Of a stretch of 64,000 nt of DNA, positions 7,263 through 12,538 are shown piece by piece. Source of the DNA: Stieleria neptunia (GTDB lineage: Bacteria; Planctomycetota; Planctomycetia; Pirellulales; Pirellulaceae); NCBI RefSeq assembly GCF_007754155.1, contig NZ_CP037423.1:8986938-9050937 (forward strand), given 5' to 3'. A model generated the notes under the pieces. It worked only from the letters and a program-made list of their open reading frames with translations, was not told where the DNA came from and searched no databases. The number at the start of each line of letters is the position of its first letter. Position 1 is the first letter of the stretch. The position numbers and the translations under genes were made by a program.

Positions 7263-7516
7263 TTGAGCTTGAGTGGGAGGACGGAACTGGCACCAGGGTA
7301 AAACGCGGACAAGCCGATGACAACGTGCGATCCCAAAGCGTCCTCGACGCCGGGGAATCCGAAATGACGCTCCAATCCCTACCGCTTGAACCCAGCCATG
7401 CCGGTCAGGCACTGAAAAACTGTGCGTATTCGAAGTGATTACGCAGATTCCTGGCCTATGTTTCCTTGGCTGTGCCTTTTCCCCGAGAAAACCAACCAAA
7501 AAGATATATCCCCACC

Positions 7517-7711
7517 ATGACCAACCAAGACCCACTCCCCGAGCGCCAGTCGCTGTGGCGGGATGAGGAGGGCACAACGGCAGTTGAATACGCCGTGATG
7601 CTCGCCCTGATCATCGCCGTCTGCGTCGGCTCGGTCGCCACCCTGACCACTGAAACCCAAAAAAGCTTCGACGCCTCTGGAGCCGCGATTTCCGGCGCCA
7701 TGGGCAACTAA
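7517..7711 (+). CDS. Flp/Fap-type class IVb pilin
   Basis: 64-aa pilin of the tight-adherence type. It has a short hydrophilic leader (MTNQDPLPERQSLWRDEEG), a prepilin-peptidase site after that Gly, Glu at +5 of the mature protein (TTAVEYAVML) and one hydrophobic helix (ALIIAVCVGSVATL). The ATG at 7517 was chosen because the upstream extension does not fit a pilin leader. No tad/cpa assembly genes are adjacent, so it is an orphan copy that depends on machinery elsewhere. Confidence 0.9.
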   Translation: MTNQDPLPERQSLWRDEEGTTAVEYAVMLALIIAVCVGSVATLTTETQKSFDASGAAISGAMGN

Positions 7712-9436: not shown

Positions 9437-10255
9437 TTAACGCCGGCGTCGCAAGGTGCAAACGCCTCCGACGAGCGCCAAGAATCCAAACGCGGTCGGC
9501 TCGGGAATCGCCGTGACGGAGTACTGCAAATTATCGATGAACAGATACGTCGGGGTGTTGATTCCGTACTGTCCCACGTCACTCGACTGGAACGTCAGAT
9601 CGATCGAACGCGCGTTTCCGAGCGCCGTCAGGTCTTCGTTGACCTGCCACGTGTTGACGATGTAATCCTGGCTGTCGTCGGCGAACGTGTAATCGGCCAA
9701 ATCCAAGGTCACCGTTCCCGTTGCGGCGCCGGTCGCGTTCAAGTCGCTGTAGCCGGTCAGGGTCACACGAAAGAAGTCGGACTCGGATCCACTGCCACCG
9801 CCGAACTCCTTCGCGTACGCGTCTCCGTCACGCATCGAGAGATAGGGGTACGTCCCGTTGGTCCAATCGACGCTTTCGATCAAGGCGCCCGTCGGCAGAT
9901 TGATCGTCGCACCGGAACCGAACGCCAGCGCGTACGTCTGACCGCCCACGGATCCGCCGGCGCCGTCGCTGCCGCCACCGGTGATCGCGGAATGCTCGTT
10001 GGTGAACCCCGGCGTCGCCGTGTCGGTGGTGTTGCTGTACGCCCAACCGCCCCAAGACCCAACCCAGGTGGTTTGATTGCTGAACTCAACCCCGTCAACG
10101 GTCCACGGATCATGGTTGATCTGTGACGTGTCGCCTTTGTAATACGATTCGGACGTGGTCAACAGGTTCTCAAACGTCACGATTTCGGCGCCGGCGATCG
10201 AACAGAGCGAGCCGGCGGCGAACAGGGCAAACAGAAATGGGCGAGAGACATTCAT
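9437..10255 (-). CDS. DUF4465-type exported protein with PEP-CTERM sorting signal
   Basis: 272-aa exported protein. A signal peptide (MNVSRPFLFALFAAGSLCSIAGA) is followed by a domain I recognise as DUF4465: GGWAYSNTTDTATPGF, then SAITGGGSDG, SMRDGDAYAKEFGG, DYIVNTWQ and a C-terminal INTPTYLFIDN. It ends in a PEP-CTERM motif (AIPEPTAF), a hydrophobic helix and RRRR, so it is probably processed by an exosortase and surface-located. It lies 94 bp downstream of the DUF1559 gene on the same strand, behind a cobalamin riboswitch. As I recall, but cannot check here, DUF4465-type surface proteins occur in Bacteroides cobalamin uptake loci, which would fit a B12-capture role. Confidence 0.9.
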   Translation of the reverse strand: MNVSRPFLFALFAAGSLCSIAGAEIVTFENLLTTSESYYKGDTSQINHDPWTVDGVEFSNQTTWVGSWGGWAYSNTTDTATPGFTNEHSAITGGGSDGAGGSVGGQTYALAFGSGATINLPTGALIESVDWTNGTYPYLSMRDGDAYAKEFGGGSGSESDFFRVTLTGYSDLNATGAATGTVTLDLADYTFADDSQDYIVNTWQVNEDLTALGNARSIDLTFQSSDVGQYGINTPTYLFIDNLQYSVTAIPEPTAFGFLALVGGVCTLRRRR

Positions 10256-10349
10256 GGTGAAACGATTTCGTTGTTGTGAATCTTGAAGTTCGAATTTTGG
10301 AATTCAGATTGAGTTGCACGTCGACGCCACGCATCGACACCACGCATCG

Positions 10350-11174
10350 CTACCAGGCGTCGGCCGGGATCACTTCGTGGCCGGCCCGGGTGATCATTTG
10401 GCCGAGCACGATCTTGTCGAGCGATTCGTTCAGCAGATGCACACTGCCGTCGAGAAACAGCACCATGGCGCCGGCGGGATGCAACGAACGGATTTCGTTG
10501 TCGCCGACCCAAGCACGATCGTCGTTGATCGGGTGGGATTGCACGAACACGTTTCCGCCGTTGATCCATTCGCTGTCCGGCCCCACCATGTCTTCGCCGG
10601 TGGCCATCGTGTTGGACAAACCGTCCAAGCAATCGCGATAGCGAATCCGCTGTTCGTAAAGGAACACCCCGTCGTCCGGTTTTCGGTCGACGATGCGTTC
10701 CCCGAACAGGCCCCCGTAACTGATCTCGCCACGCCCGTTGCCTTGAGGAATTTCGGTGGGGCACAGATACGATTCGACCACGACCGCCGCCGCATCGGCG
10801 TTGCGCGGATGATCAAACGCGTAGTTGAAATCAACGGCCTCATACAACGCCTGTTCCCCCATCTGCGGCAACAGAAACGCCGACCAAGCCAGGTTCTTTC
10901 GTGTGCTCGGCTGGCCCCAAAACCGCCACTCCAAACATCCGATCGGCAACGACCGGTGCAGGTTGTGATAGGCATGCAGCGCCACACCGATCTGGTGCTG
11001 GTGGTTGCGGCAATTGGCCTGGCGAGCCGCCTCGCGGGCGAACTGGACCGCCGGCAACAACAGCGAAACCATGATCCCGATGATGGCGATCACGACCAGC
11101 AATTCGACCAGGGTAAACCCGATGCGGGTCGGCCCGCTGGCGGTGCCACGGATTGGACGGTTACGGTAACGCAT
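10350..11174 (-). CDS. DUF1559 pseudopilin-like protein
   Basis: 274-aa protein of the large planctomycete DUF1559 family. The N-terminal prepilin-type methylation motif (GFTLVELLVVIAIIGIMVSL) starts near residue 18, followed by LLPAVQFAREAARQANCRNH, which marks the DUF1559 domain. The C-terminus carries the typical VLFLDGSVHLLNES stretch. It is anchored by the N-terminal helix and faces the cell exterior after prepilin peptidase cleavage. The ATG at 11174 puts the methylation motif at the usual distance. It is the first gene downstream of the cobalamin riboswitch and likely shares a transcript with the DUF4465 gene. Confidence 0.93.
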   Translation of the reverse strand: MRYRNRPIRGTASGPTRIGFTLVELLVVIAIIGIMVSLLLPAVQFAREAARQANCRNHQHQIGVALHAYHNLHRSLPIGCLEWRFWGQPSTRKNLAWSAFLLPQMGEQALYEAVDFNYAFDHPRNADAAAVVVESYLCPTEIPQGNGRGEISYGGLFGERIVDRKPDDGVFLYEQRIRYRDCLDGLSNTMATGEDMVGPDSEWINGGNVFVQSHPINDDRAWVGDNEIRSLHPAGAMVLFLDGSVHLLNESLDKIVLGQMITRAGHEVIPADAW

Positions 11175-11322
11175 GACCAGACTCGGATGTCCCGGCGGCA
11201 GCGAACGCTTTAGTGTACAGACCGATGCGCGCATTCCGGCATCCCACACTCTGGTGATGCAATCGTGCTTGCGCAAGCCAATCTGTTGACGCCGACCTCA
11301 CCCTGGAAGGTCCCTGAAGCGT

Positions 11323-11572
11323 CCGTCGGGTGGTAGGTCTTCTGACTTCCCGATGACGTCGTCGCGCTTCGCCTTCTCGTCATTCGGTCATCTTGCGTCA
11401 AGCAGGACGATCCGCGGACAATGGCTAAAAGAGTGAAGCGTGGACGGCTGATTCCCACGTCGCCTTTGTTCAAACGACGTGAAAACCAACAGCATCGGTT
11501 ACAGCGGCCGGGCCGTCTTGGAGTTTCACCAAAGTTCCCTGTTTCCGCGGACGATTCAATACCGCCCGACGG
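11323..11572 (-). promoter_or_regulatory. Cobalamin (B12) riboswitch aptamer
   Basis: On the minus strand the conserved core appears in order: GGGAAC (complement of 11534-11539), GGTGAAACTCC, then CGGCCCGGCCGCTGTAACCG, a variable arm, and CGGGAAG followed by a B12-box-like AGTCAGAAGACCTACC (complement of 11332-11347). The ends pair as P1: CCGTCGGG (complement of 11565-11572) with CCCGACGG (complement of 11323-11330), extended by GGTA/TACC. The aptamer lies 148 bp upstream of the DUF1559 start. No obvious U-tailed terminator follows, so the expression platform is undetermined. Confidence 0.9.
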
Positions 11573-11594
11573 CACCACCAAACGTTGTGTGCGA

Positions 11595-11623
11595 AAGGTA
11601 GACCCGCCCGTACCGACTGTCAA
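11595..11623 (-). promoter_or_regulatory. Sigma70-type promoter for the riboswitch transcript
   Basis: On the minus strand, TTGACA (complement of 11618-11623) is separated by exactly 17 bp from TACCTT (complement of 11595-11600). Transcription would begin near 11588, just before the riboswitch P1 stem. It is divergent from kdsB, which starts at 11648. Confidence 0.65.
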
Positions 11624-11647: not shown

Positions 11648-12538
11648 ATGCCCGACACCCAAATCGTGCTGCCCGCACGCCTCGCCTCGACCCGATTGCC
11701 GGAGAAATTGCTTCAACAGGTGGCCGGCAAGAGCGTGTTGCAACACACCTACGAATCGGCCTCCCGCGCCGCCTCGGCGTCGGCGGGCGTGATCGTCGCG
11801 GTCGACGACCCGCGGATCGCCGACGAAGTGGAATCGTTCGGGGGCCGCTGGATCATGACCCCGACCGATTGCCCCAGCGGCACCGACCGCATCGCCCTGG
11901 TCGCCGACCGGTTTCCCACCACTGAGATTTTTATCAACGTGCAAAGCGACGAACCGGAGATCGACCCGGCGGCGATCGACGCCGTCGCCGAGACGCTCGC
12001 CGGCGATCCACAGGCCGACATGGCGACCGCTGGGACGCCGATCCGGTCGGCCGAGGCACTCCGCGACCCGGCGATCGTGAAGATCGTGATGGCCGGTTTT
12101 TCCCCGACAGCCGCCAGTTCAGGGCAGGGCAGCATCGGTGCGGGGCAGGGCAGTATCAGTGCAGGGCAGGGCAGTATCAGTTCAGGGCAGGGCAGGGCGG
12201 TCTACTTCAGTCGCGCCTGCGTCCCCCACCGCCGCGGCAGCGACCCGGCCGAATTGCTCCAGGCCAACCCGCCGATTTACTGGCACCACCTGGGGCTTTA
12301 CGCCTATCGCCGCGACTTCTTGTCCTGGTTCGCCGGCTCGCCCCCCAGCGTGCTGGAAGAAACCGAGAAACTCGAACAGCTGCGGGCCATCGAAGCGGGA
12401 AAAAAAATCGTCGTCGCCGCAGTCGGCCCAGCCATGCCCGGAATCGACACGCCGGAAGATCTTGCCGCGTTTCGACAGCGCATCGAGGATCCCGCCACTT
12501 CCGGTTTTTCGTCAGCGCGGTATCATCCGCGTCCATGA
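11648..12538 (+). CDS. kdsB: 3-deoxy-manno-octulosonate cytidylyltransferase
   Basis: 296-aa cytoplasmic enzyme that activates KDO with CTP for lipopolysaccharide synthesis. The nucleotide-binding start ([15 protein letters not shown], residues 7-21), [18 protein letters not shown] and VQSDEPEI motifs are all present. It is about 48 residues longer than the usual 248 because a 21-bp tandem repeat at about 12116-12200 inserts roughly 30 residues (SGQGSIG-type units) between IVKIVM and AVYFSR. The ATG at 11648 starts directly before the conserved N-terminus. The stop overlaps the pyrG start by 4 bp, so they are translationally coupled. Confidence 0.93.
12116..12200 (+). repeat. 21-bp minisatellite inside kdsB
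   Basis: Three to four in-frame units of the form CAGGGCAGGGCAGTATCAGTG, encoding (S/A)GQGSI(S/G), in the surface loop just before the conserved YFSR segment. The 7-codon period means unit gain or loss keeps the frame. Confidence 0.9.

Follow-up and report, generated by a model that had tools for sequence, protein, structure and literature searches.

A cobalamin riboswitch heads a DUF1559 prepilin gene and a DUF4465 gene in Stieleria neptunia: a probable planctomycete B12-acquisition cassette

Import of vitamin B12 (cobalamin) by Gram-negative bacteria is usually viewed as a TonB/BtuB process. In Bacteroides thetaiotaomicron, whose Btu loci encode BtuJ1/BtuJ2, BtuB, BtuG, BtuH and BtuCDF, the DUF4465 proteins BtuJ1 and BtuJ2 lie in riboswitch-regulated uptake operons, and BtuJ1 affinities are reported to be near 1e-10 M (PMC12751083). 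B12 binding has been reported for eight divergent DUF4465 members, one of them from the planctomycete Mucisphaera calidilacus (PMC13398666). Here we describe a locus in a 64,000-nucleotide stretch of the planctomycete Stieleria neptunia (contig NZ_CP037423.1; hereafter the window), in which a cobalamin riboswitch leads into a gene for a DUF1559 prepilin, followed by a gene for a DUF4465 protein. The locus shares with the Btu loci a riboswitch, an exported DUF4465 protein predicted to bind B12 and a proposed surface capture. However, the BtuJ proteins of Bacteroides are lipoproteins whose loci include the TonB-dependent BtuB. The window protein instead carries a weak PEP-CTERM, its neighbour is a prepilin, and the cassette lacks BtuB (none of the five matches to the Plug domain in the genome falls in the window). 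Family, fold and loop tyrosines are shared with D5EK51, ‘Pan’ of M. calidilacus and the other DUF4465 binders of PMC13398666, but those are described as linked to ABC and TonB transporters, and the window binder is linked to a prepilin. The main text of that study makes no mention of pilins, DUF1559, PEP-CTERM or planctomycetes. In short, DUF4465 as a B12 binder is already published and the prepilin partner is the new part: a link between a cobalamin riboswitch and a prepilin was not found in the open-licence full-text literature, including that on planctomycetes, and a search there for pseudopilins together with vitamin B12 uptake gave one paper, on Haemophilus annotation.

The covariance-model search that the first-pass annotation had called for upholds its complete B12 aptamer. 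RF00174 (Cobalamin) is the sole over-threshold Rfam match in the window, and the cmscan hit (58.0 bits against a gathering threshold of 31.5, E 8.6e-12) covers the full model from 1 to 189. The core motifs and B12-box (GGTGAAACTCC at 11530-11520, GCCGCTGTAACCG at 11508-11496 and AGTCAGAAGACCTACC at 11347-11332), the P1 arms (11572-11565 and 11330-11323) and the TTGACA-17-TACCTT promoter (hexamers at 11623-11618 and 11600-11595, spacer of 17 bases) were likewise all found. The closest named relatives by DUF4465, among the best 80, are TBK1r (Stieleria magnilauensis, 86% identity; locus L137) and Rhodopirellula sp. SM50 (84%; L138). Both keep the two hexamers unchanged, and the aptamer is identical at 250 of 267 positions across the three. 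A hairpin that might sequester the ribosome-binding site was sought in the leader and rejected, as the folding of 11150-11330 lies at the level of shuffled sequence (z 0.15); we name no switching mechanism.

Judged from its sequence and its structural model, the DUF4465 protein is a binder of a known kind. Its gene lies 94 bp past the DUF1559 gene, as first annotated, and its identity is secured by PF14717 (Table 1). The best match among solved chains by sequence is 9FCT (BtuJ1, E 7e-19). The AlphaFold2 model (pLDDT 89.9) has a jellyroll fold, for which the top Foldseek hit is 9qpm, BtuJ1 with cyanocobalamin (E 3.1e-18, TM 0.78 by target), and all nine matches at E < 0.001 are DUF4465 structures (including 9qpm, 9fct and 9hmu). 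The family has two conserved B12-contact tyrosines, Y146 and Y245 in BtuJ1, described as the DE helix Y and the HI loop NTPxY (PMC13398666); these align with Y136 (TNGTY) and Y237 (NTPTY) of the window protein. The earlier proposal of DUF4465 as the binder thus gains from the experimental B12 binding of the family (PMC13398666), from both retained tyrosines and from the riboswitches at related loci described below, and such proteins do occur in Bacteroides B12 loci (BtuJ1/BtuJ2; PMC12751083), as the annotation had put forward. The start of the protein looks, by eye, like a signal peptide. The annotated PEP-CTERM is weak, with TIGR02595 exactly at its cut-off of 16 bits and PF07589 at 12.7 against 20.7, but nine of ten aligned relatives keep the PEP motif (L018 has PKP) and five PF09721 exosortase matches were found in the genome.

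The other gene was annotated as pseudopilin-like, and its family assignment holds: the frame at 10350-11276(-) gives 158.5 bits with PF07596 (DUF1559), 24.1 with N_methyl (cut-off 21.2) and 26.9 with the H-X9-DG model TIGR04294. The frame start, however, had to be corrected. The gene probably begins at ATG 11174, 140 nt past the aptamer, because this ATG and the MRYRNR start are kept in L137 and L138; the records for SM50 and TBK1r are 274 aa (as in the window) and 294 aa, respectively. The AlphaFold2 model (pLDDT 90.1) has a 52-residue helix (22-73) and a globular part. Pilin matches cover the helix only, both by sequence profile and in Foldseek (best 1ay2, 61 columns, E 0.25), and a cobalamin-specific fold in the head was considered and rejected, as the PDB matches from both approaches stop at the pilin helix. 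The protein has the prepilin N-terminus, DUF1559 domain and H-X9-DG of other planctomycete DUF1559 (SBP_bac_10) prepilins; unlike them, its subfamily is tied to B12 riboswitches and many of its members carry Y[GA]GxxGER.

Our best reading is that the DUF1559 prepilin occupies the place in the locus where many other bacteria have BtuB. A profile scan of genome contigs gave at least 511 confirmed DUF4465 relatives, and the best 80 of these, as named loci, comprise 46 planctomycete or uncultured loci (42 titled planctomycete and four titled uncultured bacterium, L172, L178, L189 and L216, which were grouped with the planctomycetes after their genes were seen) and 34 others. Prepilins and BtuB were called with hidden Markov models built in this analysis. 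The BtuB profile was iterated from one protein, and as a check on it the Plug domain (PF07715) was found just behind the riboswitch at 10/10 BtuB-first loci checked (L031, L033, L036, L039, L040, L046, L049, L056, L067 and L086). We see a prepilin at 38 of the 46 planctomycete or uncultured loci (34 of 42 when the four uncultured ones are left out) and BtuB at none, and the reverse at the 34 others, with BtuB at 24 and a matching prepilin at none. The two occur together at 0/80 loci. The exchange is visible within one gene order, with SECR-DUF4465-BtuB at L161, L179, L191 and L198 versus SECR-DUF4465-prepilin at the planctomycete loci L150 and L156 (SECR is an exported family, described further below). 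RF00174 was found at 46 of the 50 loci scanned out of the 80, among them 43 of the 46 planctomycete or uncultured loci. Of the four misses, three lie at contig ends and one is a cyanobacterium.

The first-pass annotation had proposed a survey of planctomycete genomes for riboswitch-headed DUF1559-DUF4465 pairs. Among 392 such genomes DUF4465 is rare, with 12 copies in 11 genomes, and up to about 20 kb was fetched around the 11 copies outside the window. RF00174 adjoins 11/12 copies, window included, and a prepilin adjoins the same 11; the twelfth copy, L022, is cut, its sequence starting within the DUF4465 gene at a contig end. Gene order varies: riboswitch-prepilin-DUF4465 in the window and L019, riboswitch-prepilin-SECR-DUF4465 in L016, riboswitch-DUF4465-prepilin in L023, and riboswitch-DUF4465-SECR-prepilin in L015, where genes read as BtuF, BtuD and BtuC follow. 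Divergent arrangements are found in L017, L020 and L024, and the prepilin of L017 has its own riboswitch.

The prepilins themselves form a B12-tied subfamily. The best match of the window prepilin in four other genomes is the cassette prepilin of genome G167 (50% identity, 239 bits), the next best of any kind reaching 121 bits. A maximum-likelihood tree was built from 55 prepilins (11 DUF4465-linked, 17 riboswitch-first and 27 paralogues; the L058 prepilin, which the pattern did not pick up, is not among them). Two of its groups are wholly B12-linked, one of 20 rows (100/100), for which the test is less strict as the paralogues are those nearest to the window protein, and one of seven rows that includes the window (95/83). 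The motif Y[GA]GxxGER occurs in 7/7 members of the latter and in 0/27 paralogues. A prediction test was then based on prepilin sequence only, searching 199 genomes of the family, of which 88 had a match at E 1e-55 or better; one gene per genus was taken from 20 of the 24 genera. The riboswitch that the earlier annotation expected upstream of orthologous genes was present (RF00174) at 16/20 orthologues, and DUF4465 at 17/20, although three of the 20 (L243, L245 and L252) probably repeat L139, L151 and L202. Four orthologues are without RF00174: L241 and L244 begin with SECR followed by the prepilin, so that their upstream side is cut; L242 runs into a contig end, its prepilin following DUF4465; and L255 is without DUF4465 as well. 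L248 has a riboswitch and no DUF4465. Because of the recurrent linkage, the B12-only clades and the prediction test, we consider it supported that DUF1559 belongs to the B12 system.

These data also bear on whether the pairing is a chance neighbourhood of very common planctomycete genes. There are 61 DUF1559 matches in the S. neptunia genome and up to 108 among ten genomes counted, and the 68 DUF1559 paralogues of Planctopirus limnophila are described as its largest paralogue group, with a function called unknown (PMC10632474). However, even with 4% of genes being prepilins, the 19/76 riboswitch loci described next would have p about 1e-10 and the 11/11 adjacency about 1e-9 (relatedness ignored), and the B12-only tree groups and the 16/20 outcome of the prediction test also speak against chance. 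Chance adjacency was rejected on the DUF1559 counts, the tree and the probability estimate, and we give it next to no credence.

Cobalamin riboswitches are common in the phylum, with RF00174 in 337/392 genomes at E 0.001 and in 330 over the cut-off. We examined 76 riboswitch loci, 60 of them (L031-L090) mostly one per genus and chosen from the best-scoring places listed, and 16 from ten near relatives; they represent 75 places, as L090 and L091 are the same, L105 is the L023 locus, and L095 and L104 hold near-identical prepilins in one genome. Within 700 bases past the riboswitch, BtuB is the first gene to be recognised at 25 loci, a prepilin at 19, SECR at one, DUF4465 at one and something else at 30 (ribonucleotide reductase, MetE, OprB porins and propellers among them, as assigned by reading or Pfam). 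BtuB and a prepilin are found together in the fetched stretch at 0/76. The L037 prepilin heads a row read as BluB, CobQ, CobO, CobT and CobS (labels by reading alone), and the third gene of L043 encodes a PF01902 ATPase, a family reported to include a subgroup predicted for B12 salvage (PMC3541065). In three planctomycete genomes the gene next to the riboswitch encodes an OprB-type porin (L061:5931-7481(-), L065:963-2528(+) and L079:1165-2859(+); partial matches over cut-off), a possible third outer-membrane route.

A prepilin beside an exported binder could also work as a type II secretion-like pseudopilin: it would bring the DUF4465 protein to the surface and leave B12 uptake to another system. 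The adjacency of the two genes at 11/12 copies would suit this, as would the scores of the prepilin N-terminus with GspG and GspH models, which are far below cut-offs. However, the 19 prepilins that head riboswitch loci do so with no DUF4465 in the fetched stretch, one of them before the cobalamin-gene row of L037, and at five riboswitch-DUF4465 loci with both flanks fetched there is no prepilin. Secretion of the binder is, in our judgement, improbable.

Some of the genomes concerned have no detected TonB plug. PF07715 is absent from 13 of 17 prepilin-first genomes (17 of 18 being tested) and from 3/11 DUF4465-cassette genomes, giving 15/27 combined (G137 is in both sets), and all 15 are at least 94% complete. 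The TonB barrel PF00593 is over its cut-off in none of the 14 tested among these 15, with G365 having one match below it. Plug is present in 16/16 BtuB-first genomes tested, by construction. The genome G321, taken as P. limnophila, has a riboswitch-prepilin locus (L054) and no Plug match. CbiC was found in 0/18 genomes tested, against 7/14 in the control; with CbiC missing from all 18, the usual routes to the corrin ring are probably closed to these organisms, which would depend on import or salvage.

Such dependence counts against a cassette that serves to store B12 or to compete for it by sequestering it at the surface or on vesicles, as does the L015 gene row, which runs on into the genes read as BtuF, BtuD and BtuC. 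Sequestration would have some precedent, in that BtuJ proteins are reported on vesicles of B. thetaiotaomicron and to deliver cobalamin there (PMC12751083), but we think it improbable. Somewhat easier to entertain, although still unlikely, is that the prepilin never polymerises and is an inner-membrane-anchored periplasmic corrinoid carrier, passage of the outer membrane being provided by a porin or TonB receptor. The Pfam name of PF07596 is SBP_bac_10 and the family has been described as solute-binding (PMC2754498), the porins noted above stand behind three riboswitches, and S. neptunia itself has TonB receptors. Against this carrier role stand the 15/27 genomes with no Plug match and the finding that the prepilin occurs instead of BtuB, never together with it, in the loci examined.

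We therefore favour, as probable, a cassette for B12 acquisition in which the prepilin plays an active part. The riboswitch would permit expression of the transcript under cobalamin shortage. Once exported, the DUF4465 protein would capture cobalamin via its loop tyrosines, with exosortase probably keeping it at the cell surface. The DUF1559 protein, processed like a type IV prepilin, would form or join a structure of the pseudopilus type, which would either present the binder or carry B12 inward. The pseudopilus step taken alone is more doubtful, and we lean slightly against it. Of the surface B12-capture system first proposed for this locus, B12 capture with DUF4465 as the binder is well supported and the membership of DUF1559 is supported, whereas a fibre or anchor role and the surface location are, like B12 control and an outer-membrane role, points that we infer. 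A wider proposal is rather unlikely at present: that planctomycetes without TonB receptors bring B12 across the outer membrane by a dedicated B12-regulated pseudopilus, a DUF1559-type subunit (with or without DUF4465) replacing BtuB functionally, and, by extension, that the DUF1559 paralogues, of which a genome has dozens, each provide a fibre subunit for a particular nutrient.

Several observations weigh against the prepilin as a stand-in for BtuB in B12 acquisition. Both BtuB and a matching prepilin are missing at 10 of the 34 other DUF4465 loci, and different prepilin-type genes lie in the flank at L190 and L213, which are among the 34. Eight of the 46 planctomycete or uncultured loci have no prepilin, five of them being the riboswitch-DUF4465 loci with both flanks fetched (L142, L148, L153, L154 and L180); one side is cut at the remaining three (L144, L166 and L173). 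The L024 prepilin falls outside both B12-linked tree groups, and Y[GA]GxxGER is kept in only 13/20 of the later orthologues. As 13 of the 15 Plug-less genomes come from one family (f4), descent alone could explain the lack of Plug. The S. neptunia genome has five Plug matches (four over cut-off) and six TonB-barrel matches, so B12 may enter via a receptor encoded elsewhere. P. limnophila, with its riboswitch-prepilin locus, is said not to require vitamin supplements (PMC3035269). Finally, the prepilin head has no Foldseek match to any solved fold, and any fibre formation, B12 binding or DUF4465 contact by the prepilin is conjecture.

At many planctomycete loci, some of them in genomes where no TonB plug domain was detected, a riboswitch-controlled prepilin stands in the place of BtuB. 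This hints at a different B12 uptake route, and the cassette gives members of DUF1559 a specific ligand and condition that can be tested. It could also tie genetics to planctomycete fibres that bind macromolecules. Pili-like fibres that emerge from crateriform structures are reported to bind dextran (PMC5394234), and share with the present proposal the fibre-based capture of a large molecule at the planctomycete surface; they differ in that the account given there leaves the fibre protein unnamed and makes no connection with B12 or DUF1559. The genome taken as P. limnophila, a strain with genetic tools, has a riboswitch-prepilin locus.

Table 1 Features of the riboswitch-prepilin-DUF4465 locus, in window coordinates
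Feature	Position	Strand	Evidence or remark
Sigma-70-like promoter, TTGACA-17-TACCTT	11595..11623	(-)	Consensus match only
Cobalamin riboswitch aptamer, RF00174	11315..11581	(-)	58.0 bits; long insertion in variable arm
Leader, aptamer to prepilin start	11175..11314	(-)	129/140 positions identical in window, TBK1r and SM50
DUF1559 (PF07596) prepilin, 274 aa, GFTLVELLVV site, H-X9-DG near C-terminus	10350..11174	(-)	Pfam, NCBIfam, tree, AlphaFold2
DUF4465 (BtuJ-type) protein, 272 aa, weak PEP-CTERM	9437..10255	(-)	PF14717 136.5 bits (cut-off 25)

The SECR family (FAVFENG ... GTPFDL; some members with dockerin tails) is common to DUF4465 loci of planctomycetes, proteobacteria and Bacteroidetes, and is a candidate further B12-acquisition protein. 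Members lie at L015:8200-9327(-), L016:8067-8972(+), L021:7993-9030(+) and L026:9444-10364(+), and in L025 SECR is fused to DUF4465. We give the family no other name: matches fall on the C-terminal dockerin-like part (best 60 of 109 matches, E up to 1), and the sole NCBIfam match, to a LIC_13355 lipoprotein, scores far below cut-off. Single frames with very high DUF4465 scores, 488-747 bits against 116-322 for other single frames there, occur in L250, L251, L254, L202, L209, L211 and L215, which suggests tandem DUF4465 domains in some planctomycetes.

A second cobalamin riboswitch (78.5 bits) lies outside the window in the S. neptunia genome, where the gene behind it encodes an exported protein of the SECR family that has a PEP-CTERM (TIGR02595, 27 bits; L026:9051-10364). 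No prepilin pattern was seen in the 19 kb fetched around it. The two cobalamin riboswitches in S. neptunia are thus both followed by genes that encode PEP-CTERM-like proteins. Elsewhere in the window, a small frame at 7466-7711(+) has a Flp-pilin-like stretch, EEGTTAVEYAVMLALIIAVC, read by eye, and a 21-base tandem repeat of 3.9 copies at 12115-12195 lies inside a divergent kdsB-like frame, giving GQGSISA repeats in the protein.

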